From contig CAIWHK010000058.1 of assembly GCA_903912525.1 (NCBI GenBank), positions 1-47,375 of the forward strand: DNA of 47,375 bases, read 5' to 3'. Every line of letters starts with the position of its first letter. The first letter of the stretch is position 1. The notes under the pieces were generated by a model. The model had not been told where the DNA came from, made no database searches, and saw nothing but the letters and a program-made list of their open reading frames with translations. This DNA is from an uncultured bacterium. GTDB taxonomy: Bacteria; Krumholzibacteriota; Krumholzibacteriia; LZORAL124-64-63. Position numbers and translations under genes: made by a program. This document shows, in pieces, positions 2,150-46,243 of the stretch.

Positions 2150-3157
2150 CTACCGCCAGCCCGTAACCATCGCCGATACACGCCAATAGCCGAAGTTACC
2201 CTCGGCATTCGCGGGGCGGATATCCTCGACGCGCCAGGCCACCTCGTGTGGCCCGGGCGTCAGCCACGGCGTCAGGTCGACGATGTTCGGCGGCGAGACG
2301 TCGCCTGGGCACCAGCCGCTGCGCTCGTAGTCGCAGCTCCACGAACCGTCCGACCACCGCGCGCAGTACGGGTTCAGCGGGCGCAGCTTCTCGCAGTCGT
2401 CGCGCCACGGGCGCCAGCGCAGCACCTCGCGGCCGTCGATGGTGATGACGTTGTCCTTCGTGATGAACTCGTCGGCGTCGGTGCCGTCGGTGCAGTGGCC
2501 GGTCGAGATGGCGGCCAGCTCCAGGCGCCGCAGGCCGGCCGGCACGGTGATGGTCTTGCCGGCCACGGGCGCCTTCGCCGTCAGGTTGCCCGGCGGCAGC
2601 AGCACGCCGGCAGCCCACGTCGGCGCCGTCACGCTGCCGTCGGTGGCGGTCGTGAAGACCAGCGAGGCGTCCACGGTCCACGCGGGGGAGACCCACGTGT
2701 CGATGAACACCTCGAACGCGCAGTGCCCCTGCAGCAGCGGGGCCGCGCGAGTGATGTCGACCTCGTGGGTGATGGGACCGCCGTACGCCGTCATGAACCG
2801 GCACAGTTCCACCGGCGCCATCCCCGGCTTCACCAGCCGCACCGAGCCGGCGCGGTCCCAGCGGTCGACCACGCTGCGGATGTCGGCGCGGATCGGGCGC
2901 ACGGCCAGCCGCAGCGTCACGCGCGTCGGGCCCTGCAGGGGCGGCAGTTCGCGGTAGGTGGCCATGATGCGCCCGTTGTCGCGGGCCGAGGCCACCGGGG
3001 TGTCGTACTTCGTGCTGTCGGCGGGGGTGAAGTGCACCGTCACGTTCTCGTACAGCGGCACCACGCGCGCCGGGGGCGCCACGACCCGCTCGCCGCAGCC
3101 GATCGTCGCCACCGCCACGACAAGGAGCGCCGCCGCCATCATCCCACGTGTCTTCAT
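2150..3157 (-). CDS. PNGase F-like (peptide-N-glycosidase F superfamily) lipoprotein
   Basis: This 335-residue lipoprotein (lipobox TIGC, Cys21) has the jelly-roll pattern of peptide-N4-(N-acetyl-beta-glucosaminyl)asparagine amidase F-like proteins. The C-terminal half carries the family hallmark: a Trp-rich stretch GSWSCDYERSGWCPGD (about 271-286), then PPNIVDLTPWLTPG and a strand-rich end. Cysteines are abundant, as expected for an exported disulfide-bonded protein. Known members remove N-glycans from glycoproteins; whether this one is active cannot be told, because the catalytic acids were not aligned. GGGAGCGGACGGG precedes the ATG. The gene is divergent from the acyltransferase at 3275. 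It could be only a structural relative of PNGase F with another role. Confidence 0.7.
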   Translation of the reverse strand: MKTRGMMAAALLVVAVATIGCGERVVAPPARVVPLYENVTVHFTPADSTKYDTPVASARDNGRIMATYRELPPLQGPTRVTLRLAVRPIRADIRSVVDRWDRAGSVRLVKPGMAPVELCRFMTAYGGPITHEVDITRAAPLLQGHCAFEVFIDTWVSPAWTVDASLVFTTATDGSVTAPTWAAGVLLPPGNLTAKAPVAGKTITVPAGLRRLELAAISTGHCTDGTDADEFITKDNVITIDGREVLRWRPWRDDCEKLRPLNPYCARWSDGSWSCDYERSGWCPGDVSPPNIVDLTPWLTPGPHEVAWRVEDIRPANAEGNFGYWRVSAMVTGWR

Positions 3158-4447: not shown

Positions 4448-5329
4448 ATGGATGTGAGGCAGAGGCTTCGCTCGACGATCACGCTCGCGTGCCTGCTGCT
4501 CGTGCTGGCGTGCGCCGCCGGCGCAGAGATCCCGGACGGCTACTACGCCCACGTCGACACGTCTTCGGCGGATCGTCTGCGCGCCACGGTGCACGCGGTC
4601 ATCAGGTCCGGCCACGTGAAGATCCCGTACACGGCCGCCAGCATCGACACCTGGAACGTCCTCGAGGCGGCCGACCAGGACCCCGCCGACTCGACGCGCG
4701 TGCTCGACCTCTACCGCAACGCCTCGTTCCCCAAGTTCGGCGCCGGCAACAACTACTACCAGCGCGAGCACACCTGGCCCAAGAGCTTCGGCTTCCCGAA
4801 GAACGAGGCCGCCAACTTCTGCTACACCGACTGCCACATGCTCTTTTTGGCCGACGGCGGCTACAATGCAGCGCGCAGCAACAACGTCTACGACGACATC
4901 GCCACGCCCCACGAGACCTACCCCGTCGAGGGCACCGGCTGCGTCGACGAACGCGAAGCCGGTTTCCCCGAAGGCCGCTGGGAAGTGTGGGAGGGCCGGC
5001 GCGGCGATGTCGCCCGCGCGCTGCTCTACATGGACGTCCGCTACGAGGGCGAGGGCGCCGAGCCCGACCTGATCCTGACCGACGACATCGACCGCATCGT
5101 CGCCTCGAATGTCGGCCGCAACCTCGATGTGGCCTACATGGGCCTGCGCAAGGCGCTGCTGCAGTGGCACCAGCAGGATCCGGTCGATGATGGCGAGCGC
5201 CGCCGCAACGATGTGGTGTACCGCTACCAGGGCAACCGCAACCCGTTTGTGGACCATCCGGAGTGGGTGGGGACGATCTTCAGCGGGGCCGCGGCACTTG
5301 CGCCGGCGCAAGTCCACGACCGCCATTGA
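4448..5329 (+). CDS. Secreted endonuclease I family nuclease, with the palindromic element in its 3' end
   Basis: This 293-residue exported nuclease belongs to the endonuclease I family (EndA/Vvn type, beta-beta-alpha metal fold). A signal peptide ending near ACAAGA (residues 20-26) precedes the mature protein. The catalytic region has QREHTWPKS (about 105-113, His108 the likely general base), then DCHMLF (His130), and YNAARSNNVY, where Asn140 and Asn145 match the metal-binding pattern. Such enzymes degrade extracellular or periplasmic DNA non-specifically. The last ten residues (LAPAQVHDRH) are encoded partly by an exact copy of the 18-bp palindrome at 5296-5313, so the natural C-terminus has probably been extended or replaced. 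The gene follows the acyltransferase by 3 bp. Confidence 0.85.
   Translation: MDVRQRLRSTITLACLLLVLACAAGAEIPDGYYAHVDTSSADRLRATVHAVIRSGHVKIPYTAASIDTWNVLEAADQDPADSTRVLDLYRNASFPKFGAGNNYYQREHTWPKSFGFPKNEAANFCYTDCHMLFLADGGYNAARSNNVYDDIATPHETYPVEGTGCVDEREAGFPEGRWEVWEGRRGDVARALLYMDVRYEGEGAEPDLILTDDIDRIVASNVGRNLDVAYMGLRKALLQWHQQDPVDDGERRRNDVVYRYQGNRNPFVDHPEWVGTIFSGAAALAPAQVHDRH
5296..5313. repeat. Palindromic element copy 2, in the 3' end of the endonuclease I gene
   Basis: An exact 18-bp copy of ACTTGCGCCGGCGCAAGT lies inside the coding sequence 16 bp before the end of the stop codon. It is read in the frame giving LAPAQV (residues 284-289). Confidence 0.95.
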
Positions 5330-7505: not shown

Positions 7506-7525
7506 GACTTGCGCCGGCGCAAGTC
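7506..7525. repeat. Palindromic element copy 3, between the GH31 and HNH genes
   Basis: GACTTGCGCCGGCGCAAGTC is a perfect 20-bp palindrome containing the 18-bp core. It lies 8 bp after the GH31 stop and about 60 bp upstream of the candidate promoter of the HNH gene. Without a T-tract it is not a typical intrinsic terminator. Confidence 0.95.
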
Positions 7526-7586
7526 GATGGAGTGCTGATCGGCGTCGAGTTGCGCAGATTTTCAAACAAATATCTCGTTTGACCCC

Positions 7587-7615
7587 TTGCGGTTCGCCGT
7601 GTTATTCGCTATATT
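7587..7615 (+). promoter_or_regulatory. Candidate promoter of the HNH endonuclease gene
   Basis: TTGCGG (7587-7592) and TATATT (7610-7615) are spaced by exactly 17 bp within the most AT-rich stretch of the neighbourhood, 46 bp upstream of the ATG at 7662. An alternative -35, TTGACC, lies at 7579-7584. The AT-rich composition stands out from the surrounding GC-rich genes. Confidence 0.5.
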
Positions 7616-7661
7616 TTCGCCATCCTCCCAACCATGATTCCGCCTGCCCGAAAGGTGCGCC

Positions 7662-8663
7662 ATGACCGCCACCATCACCCTCCCTGTGTTCACCGCCGGC
7701 CGGCCCGCCGCGCAGGTCGACGCCTCCCTGCGCCAGGCCCTCAACGCCTGCGACCGCGCCCGTGAGTGCGCCGTGCTCTGGTTCGCCGAGGTCCAGCGAC
7801 GCGAGCTGCATCGCCAGCTCGGCCACGCCAGCCTGCAGCTCTACGCCACGCAGGCGCTCGGCTTCTCGGACAACCGCTACTGGCAGTTCAAGCGCCTGGC
7901 CGACGACCTCGATCGCCTCCCCGTGCTGCGCGAGGCGGTGGCATCAGGCGAAGTCGGCTGGACGAAGGCGCAGCAGGTCGCGCGTGTGGCGACGCCCGAG
8001 ACGCAGCAGCTGTGGGTGGCGAAGGCGGCGACGTGCGGGCGGCGCGAGCTGGCGGTGGCGGTGAAGGAGGCGCGGACCACCGCACCCGTGGCCGATCTGC
8101 CGACCACCATCACCCTGCGCGCGGACGGCCTGCAACTGGCGCGCTTCGAGGCGCTGTTCGAGAAGGTGCGCAAACTGAACGCCGCGCCGGGCGACGCCGA
8201 CCGCATGGACACGGTGCTGGCCGGCCTCGAGGCGCTGGTCGAGGCGGCGCGGGGTGATCGATCGCAACGGGCCGCCGCGCCCGCCATCCAGGTGGTCGTC
8301 CAGCAATGCCCCGATTGCCAAGCTGCCGCCGCCGTGACCAGCCGCGGCGAGAAGCGACTTGCTCCGGCGCAAGTCGAGGCGCTTGCCTGCGACGCCCGCG
8401 TGCGCGAACCAGGCCAGCCCAACCGCGCGACGATTCCGCCCTCGGTGCGCGCCGCCGTGCTGGCGCGCGACCGGCATCGCTGTGCCACGCCGGGCTGTCG
8501 TTCAACGCATTTCCTTGAAGTGCATCATGTCGTGGCGCGCAGCAAAGGCGGGTCCAACCAAGCGGAGAACCTGGTGACGTTGTGCAGTCGTTGCCACGGA
8601 TTCGTGCATGAATGCGGACTTGCGCCGGCGCAAGTGGAGCGGGAATGCCAAGGCGTCCGTTGA
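7662..8663 (+). CDS. DUF222-type HNH endonuclease with two in-frame palindromic elements
   Basis: This 333-residue protein has a helical DUF222/13E12-like region (about residues 15-200) followed by a C-terminal HNH nuclease. The nuclease shows a zinc knuckle CATPGC (Cys274, Cys279), EVHHVV (His288-His289), a conserved NLVTLC segment and CSRCH (Cys308, Cys311, His312). HNH domains of this type bind zinc and a catalytic divalent metal and cut DNA; the cellular target of DUF222-HNH proteins is unknown. Two copies of the dispersed palindrome lie inside the gene and both encode LAPAQV: at residues 233-238, in the linker before the HNH domain (one base changed), and at 320-325, just after it. A further copy lies upstream. 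The gene has its own AT-rich promoter region. It ends 4 bp from the convergent glycosyltransferase gene. Confidence 0.85.
   Translation: MTATITLPVFTAGRPAAQVDASLRQALNACDRARECAVLWFAEVQRRELHRQLGHASLQLYATQALGFSDNRYWQFKRLADDLDRLPVLREAVASGEVGWTKAQQVARVATPETQQLWVAKAATCGRRELAVAVKEARTTAPVADLPTTITLRADGLQLARFEALFEKVRKLNAAPGDADRMDTVLAGLEALVEAARGDRSQRAAAPAIQVVVQQCPDCQAAAAVTSRGEKRLAPAQVEALACDARVREPGQPNRATIPPSVRAAVLARDRHRCATPGCRSTHFLEVHHVVARSKGGSNQAENLVTLCSRCHGFVHECGLAPAQVERECQGVR
8356..8375. repeat. Palindromic element copy 4, inside the HNH gene linker (one mismatch)
   Basis: This copy reads gACTTGCTCCGGCGCAAGTc, differing from the consensus by one base (G to T). The change is synonymous in the LAPAQV frame (GCG to GCT, Ala), so the peptide is kept while the perfect palindrome is lost. 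Confidence 0.9.
8618..8635. repeat. Palindromic element copy 5, in the 3' end of the HNH gene
   Basis: An exact 18-bp copy lies 28 bp before the end of the gene and is read as LAPAQV (residues 320-325), directly after the last HNH zinc/catalytic segment. Confidence 0.95.
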
Positions 8664-19124: not shown

Positions 19125-20588
19125 ATGAAGCGTTTGGTCGCCCACCTGGCCCTCGTGTTCCTGCTCCCGGCGTCGCTGGCCCTGGCCGCTGACCCGTCCC
19201 CAACGCCCGACATGACCTCGCGCTGGGGATTCGGTGGCCAGCTCGGCTTCCAGAAGCCGATGGGCGGCGAGCGCGACTACGCCAACGTCGACCAGGCGGC
19301 GACGATCTGGCTGCGGCGAGGCATCAAGCCGAACTGGTCGCTCGACGCGGGCCTGCACTACGGCTACAACCGGCCCGGCGCGCTGCAGGGCCAGGATGCG
19401 GGCCTGACCTTCGACAGCGTCCTGCCGTACTACTCGACCACGTTCCACGCGATGGCCGGCCCGCGCTGGCGCGCGTCGTCGCGCGGTCCCATCGCGCCCT
19501 ACGTCGGCGTCTATGGCGGCGTGCTCGACTGGCACGTCCTGGACATGGACGGCATCACCGGGTTCGGGATCTTCCCCGACGGCCCCATCGCCGTCGGGTA
19601 CGGCAGCGACGGCGCGCGGCACAAGCTGCAGGACCGCGTGCTGACCGGCACCATCGACGTGGGCGCCGAGTGGTCGCTGGGCCGCGTCGTGGCCTTCAAC
19701 GCCGGCCTGCGCTGGACGCGCCTGCTCGGCAACAAGCTCGACAACGTCGGCAGCAGCGCCGCGTGGGGCGCGGCCGAGGCCGACATCAACTCGCAGCTGT
19801 TCGAGGCCTACGGCGGCATGACGCTGTACTTCGGGGGCAGCGACGACAAGGACAAGGACGGCATCCGCAACGACGACGACCTGTGCCCGGCCGTGGCCGA
19901 GGATCGCGACGGCTGGCAGGACACCGACGGCTGTCCCGACCTGGACAATGACAACGACGGCGTCGCCGACACGAAGGATGCCTGCCCGAACGATGCCGAG
20001 GATCGCGATGGCTTCCGCGACGACGACGGCTGTCCCGACGTCGACAACGACAACGACGGCGTGATCGATGCGCAGGACAAGTGCCCGACCGAGCTGGAGG
20101 ACCGCGACGGCTGGAAGGACGACGACGGCTGTCCCGACCCGGACAACGACGGCGACGGCGTCCTCGACGCGGCCGACAAGTGCCCGGACACGGCTGCCGG
20201 CACGGTCGTCGAGGCCAACGGCTGCGTGGCGGTCGCCGAACTCAAGGCTTCGATGGTGCTCAAGGGCGTGTCCTTCAAGCCCGCCTCGGCGGTGCTCGAG
20301 CCGACGTCGGCCGCGGTGCTCGACCAGGTCGTCGCCACGCTGAACGCATGGCCGTTCGCGCGCGTCGAGATCCAGGGGCACACCGACGACAACGGCTCGG
20401 CCGAGGCCAACCGCCAACTGGCGACGCTGCGGGCCGAGGCCGTGCGCGCCTACCTGGTCAGGGCGGGGATCGACGGCAAGCGGCTGACGGCGGTCGGCTA
20501 CGGCGAGGACCTGCCTGTGGCGGATAACTCGACCGAGGCGGGACGCGCGCTCAACCGGCGGGTGGAGATGGTGCGGACGGATCGGTAG
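19125..20588 (+). CDS. OmpA-family outer-membrane protein with thrombospondin type 3 repeats
   Basis: This 487-residue protein links outer membrane and peptidoglycan. A signal peptide ends at LALAA (about residue 22). Residues about 30-235 form a beta-barrel with alternating aromatic strands, ending in YGGMTLYFGG. Residues about 240-355 hold thrombospondin type 3 calcium repeats (D.D.DG...D.C..., four to five units). An OmpA C-terminal domain follows (about 370-487) with VEIQGHTDDNGSAEANRQLA..RA..VR.YL and LNRRVEM, the peptidoglycan-binding signature. GCAGGAGGACC precedes the ATG. A terminator at 20612-20645 follows, so it is probably monocistronic. It resembles OprF-like proteins of FCB and delta-type bacteria. 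Confidence 0.92.
   Translation: MKRLVAHLALVFLLPASLALAADPSPTPDMTSRWGFGGQLGFQKPMGGERDYANVDQAATIWLRRGIKPNWSLDAGLHYGYNRPGALQGQDAGLTFDSVLPYYSTTFHAMAGPRWRASSRGPIAPYVGVYGGVLDWHVLDMDGITGFGIFPDGPIAVGYGSDGARHKLQDRVLTGTIDVGAEWSLGRVVAFNAGLRWTRLLGNKLDNVGSSAAWGAAEADINSQLFEAYGGMTLYFGGSDDKDKDGIRNDDDLCPAVAEDRDGWQDTDGCPDLDNDNDGVADTKDACPNDAEDRDGFRDDDGCPDVDNDNDGVIDAQDKCPTELEDRDGWKDDDGCPDPDNDGDGVLDAADKCPDTAAGTVVEANGCVAVAELKASMVLKGVSFKPASAVLEPTSAAVLDQVVATLNAWPFARVEIQGHTDDNGSAEANRQLATLRAEAVRAYLVRAGIDGKRLTAVGYGEDLPVADNSTEAGRALNRRVEMVRTDR
19846..20190 (+). repeat. Internal repeats encoding thrombospondin type 3 calcium-binding units
   Basis: Units of about 100-108 bp recur with near-identical segments, such as GACGACGGCTGTCCCGAC and GACAACGACGG, encoding Asp/Asn-rich calcium loops between the OmpA barrel and its peptidoglycan-binding domain. 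The DNA similarity would allow slippage or recombination to change repeat number. Confidence 0.8.
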
Positions 20589-43253: not shown

Positions 43254-43504
43254 GGTCCGTCCTGTGGGCTGGAAGGCGGGAGCGGGGGCCGTGCACGGCA
43301 TATTTAGCAGAGGTCGGGCGGATCCACAACCGGGCATCGGCGCCGGCGCCGCCCGGGCCAGACTTGCGCCGGCGCAAGTGACCAATGCGCAAGAAATCGC
43401 GCCAGCGCGGAAATGGTTGCCCCGGCGCGGGGGGGATGGCATGGTGCCGGTGCGATTCCGTCGGAAATCACAGCCGTCCCACTCTCCGCAGAAAGCAGGT
43501 CTGC
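43254..43504. other. Intergenic region between guaA and the esterase lipoprotein gene
   Basis: This 251-bp divergent region holds a 14-bp palindrome CGGCGCCGGCGCCG (43338-43351) and, 11 bp further, copy 6 of the 18-bp palindromic element. I see no clear promoter hexamers and no riboswitch-like structure for guaA. Confidence 0.5.
43362..43379. repeat. Palindromic element copy 6, between guaA and the esterase gene
   Basis: An exact 18-bp copy of ACTTGCGCCGGCGCAAGT lies in the divergent intergenic region, about 110 bp upstream of guaA and 125 bp upstream of the esterase. It is isolated from the cluster of five copies at the left end of the window. Confidence 0.95.
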
Positions 43505-44400: not shown

Positions 44401-45009
44401 ATGAAAAAGACAACCATCACGGCCGCCCTGCTTGCGCTGGCGGTCGTTTGCGGAGGGACGGGCGCCATGGCCGGGACAGCGAATCAACAGGCGGTGCTGG
44501 GCGGCGGGTGCTTCTGGTGCCTGGACGCGACGTTCCTGCGCCTGAAGGGCGTCGAGAAGGTCGAGTCCGGCTACGCCGGCGGCGACGGACCGACCACCTA
44601 CAAGGAAGTGTGCACGGGCGAGACGGGGCACGCCGAAGTGGTGCGCGTCACGTTCGACCCGGCGGTCATCACGTTCAAGGACATCCTGACGGTGTTCTTC
44701 GCGATGCACGACCCGACCACGCTCAACCGGCAGGGCGCCGATGTGGGCACGCAGTACCGCTCGGTCATCTTCTGCCGCGACGCCGCGCAGCGCGCCGAAG
44801 CCGAGGCGATGATCGCCGAACTGACCCGCGAGAAGATCTTCAAGAGCCGCATCGTCACCGAACTGGCGGCCGACGTACCCTTCTATGTCGCCGAGGACTA
44901 CCACCAGGGCTACTTCGACAACAACCGCACGCAGGGGTATTGTCAGGTTGTGATCAACCCGAAGATCCAGAAGCTGCGCGAAAAGTTCGCCGACAAACTC
45001 AAGGACTGA
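44401..45009 (+). CDS. msrA: Exported peptide methionine sulfoxide reductase MsrA
   Basis: This 202-residue enzyme reduces methionine-S-sulfoxide in proteins. A signal peptide (cleavage near AMAG, residue 24) places it in the periplasm or envelope, where it would repair oxidised exported proteins. The catalytic motif GGGCFWC has nucleophile Cys37, with Cys40 nearby. GYAGGDGPTTYKEVCTGETGHAEVVRV, HDPTTLNRQGADVGTQYRS and EDYHQGYF..N complete the family signature. A further cysteine in QGYCQVV near the C-terminus is a candidate resolving Cys. The left end of an insertion sequence starts 2 bp after the stop codon. Confidence 0.95.
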   Translation: MKKTTITAALLALAVVCGGTGAMAGTANQQAVLGGGCFWCLDATFLRLKGVEKVESGYAGGDGPTTYKEVCTGETGHAEVVRVTFDPAVITFKDILTVFFAMHDPTTLNRQGADVGTQYRSVIFCRDAAQRAEAEAMIAELTREKIFKSRIVTELAADVPFYVAEDYHQGYFDNNRTQGYCQVVINPKIQKLREKFADKLKD

Positions 45010-45010
45010 G

Positions 45011-45029
45011 TTGTGCCGCTGAAAATGTG
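45011..45029. repeat. Left terminal inverted repeat of the insertion sequence
   Basis: TTGTGCCGCTGAAAATGTG, 19 bp, a perfect inverted match to 46225-46243. Confidence 0.9.
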
Positions 45030-45030
45030 T

Positions 45031-45059
45031 CCAGCCGCGCCGCAGGTAGGCGCGGCTGG
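45031..45059 (+). terminator. Terminator inside the left end of the insertion sequence
   Basis: A perfect 11-bp stem (CCAGCCGCGCC at 45031-45041 with GGCGCGGCTGG at 45049-45059) and a 7-base loop is followed by TTCTCTTTC. It would stop transcription entering from msrA and so may insulate the transposase from antisense reading. Confidence 0.75.
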
Positions 45060-45074
45060 TTCTCTTTCACCCGC

Positions 45075-46175
45075 TTACGCCGCGTAGCTCAACTCATGCC
45101 GCCGCTGCCGCGGCAGCGCCCGCGTGCTGATCGCCCGCCAGTAGTAATCCACCCATCTGGCCGGCAGGCTGGTGCGACTGACGAACCACCGCCGCCCCAG
45201 CAACTCCTCGACTGTCACGCGATGGTCGACGGTGCCTCGCGCCTCGGCCGGCGTCGGCCCACGGGGCCGCTTCTCTCGCCGGCTCTTCATGTAGTTCCGC
45301 CACACCAGGAACACAGCCAGCCGCTCCGCGCTCGCCTGCCGGCGTTTCGACCACGCGATCGTCTCTCGCTTGTGGTTCGCGCTGCTGTGGCGAAGCAGCA
45401 TGTCCGCCAGGTTCACCGGGAACAGCGGGTTGTCGGCGTCGCGGCGTTCCTTGCTCGAGGTCACCAGGTGCGTCACTTCGCAGAGAAGCCCCTTGATCGC
45501 CTGCGGATAGGCCCGGTGATCATCACTCAGCACCGTCAAATGCGGCTGACTGCCGGCCACCACCTCGAGCAGGTGCTTCACGTCCCCGTACACCGCCTTC
45601 GGGTCCGGACGGCCGAGAGCGGCCTCGAGACGTTCGCGTTTGCGCTTCTGGGCCGGGGTCATCGTGCCGGACCGACGGACCTCGCTGTCGGTGAAGTAGA
45701 CGATGAAATCGGACTCGGGCTCGATGGCCAGATGATGGTGGAACGGCCAGTACTGGGAATGCTCGAAGGAGACGAAGCCGTCGATGGCGACTCGCCGGGC
45801 CGGTTCGGCGGACTGCATCGTGGCGGCGTGATAGAGCAGACAATGGCGGCCGAGGCGGCTGAGCTGGCGGTCGATAGTGGACGGCGCCACCTTCAGATCG
45901 CGGGCGATCTGTCGGTTGGCCATGCAACCGGTGGTCTTGGTCAGGAGCTGCGGCAGGATGTCGGGGCGCTTGAGCCAGTAGGTTGTCGAGAAAGTCTGAG
46001 TGCTGAACGATCTGCGACAGTGCAGGCAGAGGAACCGCTGGATACGGTGCGGGGCCACCTGTCTACCGAAGGTGCCGATGCACTTGAAGCGCCAGCCGGC
46101 ATCCAACTGCAGGTGGTACTTGCAGTTGGGATTGGGGCAGTGGGGCGGGACGAATGAATTGTTGGAGTGTCGCAT
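45075..46175 (-). CDS. Transposase with N-terminal zinc ribbon and DDE-like domain
   Basis: This 366-residue transposase has a zinc-ribbon region (CPNPNCKYH...CLHCRRSF, about residues 13-60) and then a helix-turn-helix segment (MANRQIARDLKVAPSTIDRQLSRLGRH, about 84-110). The catalytic core has candidate acids in VAIDGFVSF, TVLSDDHRAYPQAIKG and KRRQASAERLAVFLVWRNYMK, consistent with a DDE nuclease. The zinc ribbon plus DDE order recalls IS1/IS1595-like enzymes, but I do not assign a family. GGGTAGGC precedes the chosen ATG; ATG at 46190 is an alternative. The frame is intact and both inverted repeats are present, so the element may still be mobile. Confidence 0.85.
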   Translation of the reverse strand: MRHSNNSFVPPHCPNPNCKYHLQLDAGWRFKCIGTFGRQVAPHRIQRFLCLHCRRSFSTQTFSTTYWLKRPDILPQLLTKTTGCMANRQIARDLKVAPSTIDRQLSRLGRHCLLYHAATMQSAEPARRVAIDGFVSFEHSQYWPFHHHLAIEPESDFIVYFTDSEVRRSGTMTPAQKRKRERLEAALGRPDPKAVYGDVKHLLEVVAGSQPHLTVLSDDHRAYPQAIKGLLCEVTHLVTSSKERRDADNPLFPVNLADMLLRHSSANHKRETIAWSKRRQASAERLAVFLVWRNYMKSRREKRPRGPTPAEARGTVDHRVTVEELLGRRWFVSRTSLPARWVDYYWRAISTRALPRQRRHELSYAA

Positions 46176-46203
46176 GCCTACCCGGGGCATGGCCCGGGCC
46201 AGA

Positions 46204-46243
46204 CACAATTTCAGCGGCACAACCCACATTTTCAGCGGCACAA
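46204..46243. repeat. Right end of the insertion sequence: two tandem inverted-repeat copies
   Basis: CACAATTTCAGCGGCACAA (46204-46222) and CACATTTTCAGCGGCACAA (46225-46243) are 21 bp apart and differ at one position. Only the outer copy is a perfect match to the left end. Confidence 0.9.

Follow-up and report, generated by a model that had tools for sequence, protein, structure and literature searches.

An 18-bp palindrome, ACTTGCGCCGGCGCAAGT, accompanies an HNH endonuclease gene of an uncultured Krumholzibacteriota bacterium from upstream of the promoter to the C-terminal codons, and it is dispersed in many further copies over the genomes of this genus. Taken as a whole, our observations are best explained, with moderate confidence, if the protein is a sequence-specific nuclease in which a ParB/Noc-type domain reads the palindrome as its cognate site, and if the gene spreads in a homing-like manner.

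Palindromes in and around the HNH gene

The window, that is, the whole stretch of DNA analysed (47,375 nucleotides), contains six matches to the palindrome, against 0.02 expected from dinucleotide shuffles. These matches and the features of the gene are as follows.

110-127, no strand: dispersed palindrome copy (sequence match)
5296-5313, no strand: dispersed palindrome copy adjoining the start of a GH31 gene (sequence match)
7507-7524, no strand: upstream palindrome copy, exact, 155 bp 5′ of the start codon
7570-8635, + strand: unit common to dispersed paralogues, comprising promoter and gene body, with its right end at palindrome C and the stop codon outside (blast matches)
7587-7615, + strand: putative promoter common to paralogues, -35 TTGCGG, 17-bp spacer, -10 TATATT (alignment of the upstream regions of genus paralogues)
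7662-8663, + strand: HNH endonuclease gene of a multicopy family, 333 aa (ORF; Pfam HNH, E=5e-10; 17 matches in its own genome)
7707-8081, + strand: predicted N-terminal ParB/Noc-like helix-turn-helix DNA-binding domain, about aa 16-140 (AlphaFold2 and Foldseek)
8357-8374, no strand: palindrome B, one mismatch (ACTTGCTCCGGCGCAAGT), situated in the linker ahead of the HNH domain, frame LAPAQV
8478-8600, + strand: HNH nuclease domain, aa 273-313 (PF01844, E=5e-10; alignment A1)
8618-8635, no strand: palindrome C, in the C-terminus of the ORF and at the right boundary of the shared unit, exact, frame LAPAQV
43362-43379, no strand: dispersed palindrome copy near the start of a GMP synthase-like ORF (sequence match)

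The initial annotation had assigned three palindrome copies to the gene, one upstream of the promoter region and one in the linker that precedes the HNH domain, and all of this holds. The last of its copies does lie behind the HNH domain, yet not outside the gene, because the ORF extends over 7662-8663; palindromes B and C thus bracket the HNH domain from within the reading frame. The gene had also been called DUF222-HNH. Its HNH half is matched in Pfam, but Pfam DUF222 (PF02720) was not detected in the window protein, and a 47%-identical homologue (L069) matches it weakly, just under the cut-off (E=5e-5).

The C, H and N residues of the HNH domain, which are the metal and catalytic residues, are invariant in 24 divergent homologues (alignment A1). 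An AlphaFold2 model of the window protein built with 24 homologues has a mean pLDDT of 82.8, and in Foldseek its C-terminus matches the HNH enzymes EcoKMcrA and ScoMcrA. Matches to the gene were found in 51 of the 58 genomes searched, with 11, 8 and 21 of them in the three congeners. Carriage of the gene by phages or plasmids was rejected, as only the HNH domain finds matches there. The -35 box of the promoter, read as CTTGCGG, resembles a half-site of the palindrome. Within the 519 kb of its own genome that were examined, the promoter motif occurs only at HNH genes, and no solo promoter remnants were found beside dispersed palindromes.

Elsewhere in the window, 30-nt inverted repeats (87%) lie 1.16 kb apart at 45007-46226 in an insertion-sequence-like arrangement, whose long ORFs gave no Pfam match when tested. 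A second repeated sequence occupies the left edge (1-46) and recurs widely in this genome and in its congeners. At 19841-20189, an OmpA-family gene holds three 99-bp tandem repeats with a weak match to the thrombospondin type 3 repeat.

The linker palindrome in paralogues of the genus

The 11 HNH loci of this genome (15.2 kb) hold 44 palindrome copies where 1.2 are expected at genome density, an enrichment of about 37-fold. In genus paralogues, site B occupies the linker that leads to the HNH part, and site C follows it by about 267 bp at the C-terminus. Often site A, read as LRRRKS, is present as well and separates the first two domains, and several paralogues have an upstream palindrome at -138 to -254 bp. 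Most of the paralogues keep two intact sites inside the ORF.

Site B was located in 31 genus paralogues, to which the following values refer. It stands in the same frame in all 31, and its identity is 97.2%, versus 65% and 68% in the 36 bases on either side. Its Leu codon is always CTT and its Gln codon always CAA (31/31 each), codons that make up 3.3% of the Leu and 8.8% of the Gln codons of the genome. This contrast with the flanks and the fixation of rare codons therefore argue for a constraint on DNA and not on protein: as judged from these alignments, the linker palindrome is under selection as DNA.

Two local rearrangements were noticed among these genes. At positions 3154-3818 of L061 (G003:C122), part of the HNH cassette is duplicated in tandem, and palindromes lie at 3154, 3368, 3534 and 3801. 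Past palindrome C, short half-site tandem arrays (CAAGT every 12-15 bp) lengthen the C-terminal frame in L054, L061, L062, L063 and L068.

Other genera carry other palindromes at the same place

HNH homologues from outside the genus lack ACTTGCGCCGGCGCAAGT; the linker that leads to their Zn/HNH part has perfect palindromes of other sequence. Such a palindrome of at least 14 bp is present in 31 of 41 genes, mostly with its centre between nt 628 and 691 of the padded gene, and absent from the other 10. Palindromes of at least 16 bp occur in 21 of the 41, versus 2.0% when synonymous codons are shuffled inside each gene, the null used for this region. Among 20 further homologues, fetched once the pattern was known, the palindrome reaches 14 bp or more in 15 and 16 bp or more in 9, mostly in the position seen before. 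A coincidence with a conserved peptide (PRG as CCCCGGGG) was rejected: the palindromes have no mismatch over 16-22 bp, the shuffles give at least 16 bp in only 2%, and the peptides differ (KCPRGH, KSRRLD, TASRLAV, KSARAD, ELRRRNS).

The centres are CCCGGG (21 genes), GCCGGC (6), CACGTG (3) and GACGTC (1), with a central CG in 31/31. Nine of these 31 genes have their internal word again in their own flank, always upstream, versus 117 of 1867 pairings of a gene with a flank from another genus (Fisher p=1e-4). In several lineages the word stands again 120-240 bp before the gene and at further places, only within that genome. Whole-genome counts gave seven copies of AGTCCAGACGTCTGGACT in G005, with the variant AGTCCACACGTGTGGACT in G013 and G022; 19 copies of GTCCACCCGGGTGGAC in G045 and one each in G022 and G029; and four copies of TACCCGCCGGCGGGTA in G012 and none elsewhere. 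Six of the seven copies in G005, and several in G045, lie away from any HNH gene; the upstream copies that adjoin HNH genes in G045 are all (7/7) at 119-177 bp from the gene. Two different perfect palindromes share one HNH gene in L025 (G022) and in L272 (G049), possibly the record of a site switch.

A ParB/Noc-like domain as candidate reader of the palindrome

The N-terminus of the window protein matches in Foldseek the complex of the Noc DNA-binding domain with its NBS (6y93; target TM 0.74, rmsd 2.5, probability 1.00), and also ParB/Spo0J. When the N-domain of a homologue from another family was modelled alone (pLDDT 94.5), its best 29 Foldseek matches were all ParB, Noc or Spo0J, and the two AlphaFold models have a TM of 0.73-0.74 to 6y93_A. 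The assignment rests on the fold, because the Foldseek E-values of the ParB/Noc matches are modest (0.06-0.2, at a probability of about 1) and Pfam HTH_ParB gives weak matches only (best E=0.0034). The models thus support a ParB/Noc DNA-binding fold for this domain. The Pfam ParB N-terminal (CTP-binding) domain has no match, and the model begins at the HTH domain.

ParB reads parS (TGTTTCAC-GTGAAACA, centre CACGTG) and Noc reads NBS (TATTTCCC-GGGAAATA, centre CCCGGG) (PMC7383237), and both centres recur among the gene palindromes of other genera. The agreement between the predicted reading domain and the type of site played no part in finding either. When recognition-helix residues were compared with half-sites, covariation was high at residues 72 and 99-100, which lie in the predicted reading elements, and at residues elsewhere too, in a signal dominated by phylogeny. 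The suggestion of the initial annotation that the enzyme may recognise the element gains support from this predicted domain.

Dispersal, gain and loss

The genome of the window (4.29 Mb) contains 159 exact copies of the palindrome and 337 copies at up to three mismatches, versus 16 for the reversed control. The three congeners have 113, 70 and 88 exact copies, and none occurs in 54 genomes from other genera of the family and class; the palindrome is confined to the genus (70-159 copies in 4 genomes). Among the matches listed in a scan of GTDB genomes, it is repeated in the MAGs LaPlata-b_bin-2430, LJ_bin-5039 and bin_118 and is otherwise found as single matches, and in IMG/VR it occurs once. 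Most genomic copies are intergenic and lie at a distance from HNH genes, and the word can be read through in each of its three frames. A longer repeat around it was rejected, the flanks not being conserved beyond 18-20 bp. Orthologous intergenic palindromes are 92% identical between congeners (98% without two apparently misaligned sites), versus 83% in their flanks. A tandem array of four palindromes with a 38-bp period, in which the spacers are conserved too, lies at 6557-6688 of L116 (G000:C5).

The initial annotation had expected the palindrome and the HNH gene to go together. No palindrome-rich genome was found to lack the gene: each has 8-21 HNH matches for its 70-159 sites, with no clear proportionality. 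Neither did we encounter HNH orthologues that are never associated with a palindrome, homologues elsewhere carrying lineage-specific ones.

Blast matches among paralogues extend from about 7565-7586, 80-95 bp before the start codon, to about 8633-8643; past palindrome C, the C-terminal tail and the stop codon are locus-specific sequence. At the L059 locus, where this genome has an HNH gene, G001 has a short HNH-leader-like stretch and then a palindrome beside the corresponding flank; in G003 a palindrome is present but the HNH gene is not. Either a deletion that removed the gene or its insertion at the palindrome would fit this pattern. At the L056 locus G003 has neither. On the evidence of these comparisons, species differ through gain and loss of HNH loci.

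Where congeners differ by gene-sized segments, these often end at palindromes. The single copy at 5296-5313 of the window corresponds in G001 (L094, 10214-12575) to two copies flanking an extra 2.3-kb gene for a 728-aa LVIVD-repeat protein, and to none in G003; G003 also lacks a stretch of 3 kb that has a palindrome at either end. Synteny ends within 40 bp of a palindrome copy in 20 of 68 cases versus 2.4 expected uniformly, an enrichment that is inflated because ends and copies are both intergenic. Between congeners we saw no precise gain of the 18 bp opposite an intact empty site, and where they are devoid of the word, whole intergenic stretches differ. A cluster of related genes with a palindrome before each is found in both L115 (G000:C7:64901-80000) and L144 (G001:C134); the gene order differs, with breaks at palindromes.

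Proposed mechanism and alternatives

We propose that the HNH protein is a sequence-specific nuclease, in which a ParB/Noc-type DNA-binding domain is joined by a linker to the HNH nuclease domain, and that the palindrome is its cognate site, which would be bound by a dimer as parS is by ParB and NBS by Noc. Binding, autorepression, cleavage and homing are the steps that we infer for this protein, whereas its pairing with the palindrome through the ParB/Noc-like domain is supported by the data, and the fold of that domain by the models. With a site in its own linker and another upstream of its promoter, the gene would carry its address along, and from genus to genus the site would have changed in step with the domain that reads it. 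By way of the upstream site, the protein probably acts as a repressor of its own promoter: autoregulation is suggested by that site and the half-site-like -35 box, and regulation of the enzyme by the element, as the initial annotation had it, is plausible from the upstream copy. The invariant HNH residues suggest cutting or nicking. The protein most likely acts at dispersed sites too, where this step would be followed by repair that copies the unit from the promoter to palindrome C into other loci in a homing-like fashion, and solitary palindromes would be left behind where copies of the unit were lost. The multicopy dispersal makes such a spread of the HNH unit plausible. As intact sites persist within the gene, classical homing, where the insertion destroys the site, does not apply unchanged.

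A palindrome placed 120-240 bp upstream of the gene, together with a -35 box that resembles a half-site, would also be expected if the HNH proteins bound the palindromes without cutting, as autoregulators or as Noc-like chromosome markers that organise DNA, and multiplied by ordinary duplication. Indeed, the hundreds of intergenic palindromes, conserved between congeners, recall the sites of Noc, which are dispersed at about 70 per chromosome (PMC4331003). However, the invariance of the metal and catalytic residues in divergent homologues and the gain and loss of HNH loci between species make this reading unlikely.

A palindrome that is itself mobile and is copied by the HNH enzyme into new intergenic sites, as in REP/RAYT pairs, would account for a mainly intergenic word, open in all three frames, whose sites are gained and lost between species. 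We nevertheless judge it quite improbable, given the lack of clean insertions facing an intact empty site, the absence of any conserved flank beyond the word and an enzyme unrelated to the HUH/Y1 transposases. No better placed is the idea that the palindrome belongs to a host factor, as a regulator, terminator, recombination or nucleoid signal, and serves the HNH family as a safe insertion site. The many copies away from HNH genes and the clustering of synteny breaks at copies, inflated as it is, fit this idea, but it explains neither the different linker palindrome of each lineage nor the ParB/Noc fold of the protein. Finally, although a perfect palindrome in the inter-domain linker can fold in the mRNA, a hairpin acting on translation pausing, stability or termination is very improbable in view of the upstream and intergenic copies, the constant central CG expected of ParB/Noc sites (31/31 internal palindromes outside the genus) and the lack of an Rfam match in the window.

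Comparison with known systems and significance

The nuclease that we propose would recognise DNA as in ParB-parS and Noc-NBS and be paired with a repeat as in RAYT/REP, but a defining feature of either system was not found in it (the CTPase domain and the HUH transposase, respectively). With ParB and Noc it shares the predicted DNA-binding fold and the type of site, palindromes of 14-16 bp with a CACGTG or CCCGGG centre and a central CG (PMC7383237). It differs in its HNH nuclease domain, in the absence of a Pfam ParB N-terminal CTPase match, and in having multicopy genes with sites embedded in their own linker, whose sequence varies from genus to genus. As in RAYT/REP, to which the initial annotation had likened it, an enzyme gene is linked to a lineage-specific, dispersed and mainly intergenic palindrome; the analogy of pairing stands, but the proteins are unrelated, Pfam and fold matches being to HNH and ParB-like domains only, with no Y1/HUH transposase. 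Furthermore, the palindrome of the HNH genes is perfect, gapless, 16-24 bp long and inside the gene.

HNH homing endonucleases have in common with our gene the HNH domain, a sequence-specific reading head (predicted here) and multicopy spread. Our gene is not a classical member of that group: it resides in neither an intron nor an intein, it keeps intact sites in its own frame, and disruption of the target site by insertion was not seen in the genus paralogues. The DUF222/13E12 (REP13E12) genes are likewise multicopy HNH genes with a DUF222-like N-terminus, which one homologue matches weakly and the window protein does not. The logic of an enzyme paired with a palindrome thus has precedents. 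In the literature searched, we found no published account of HNH/DUF222 genes with palindromes; the subscription literature may differ.

More tentatively, and with somewhat less than even confidence, we suggest that these genes form a class of self-addressed nucleases, which would carry their own palindrome in the gene and the promoter region, spread in a homing-like way to dispersed copies, and switch site and domain lineage by lineage, with one pair per genus. Such multicopy HNH genes are common, with matches in 51/58 genomes searched, and in the literature covered we met no function assigned to them. With a presumed cognate site that can be read off, their function becomes directly testable, as the gene itself names the word that its protein should bind. 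If our proposal is true, the dozens of natural enzyme-palindrome pairs would be a test bed for the evolution of DNA-binding specificity in the ParB/Noc fold and a new set of sequence-specific nucleases, and they would give an origin to dispersed palindromes that are otherwise unexplained.
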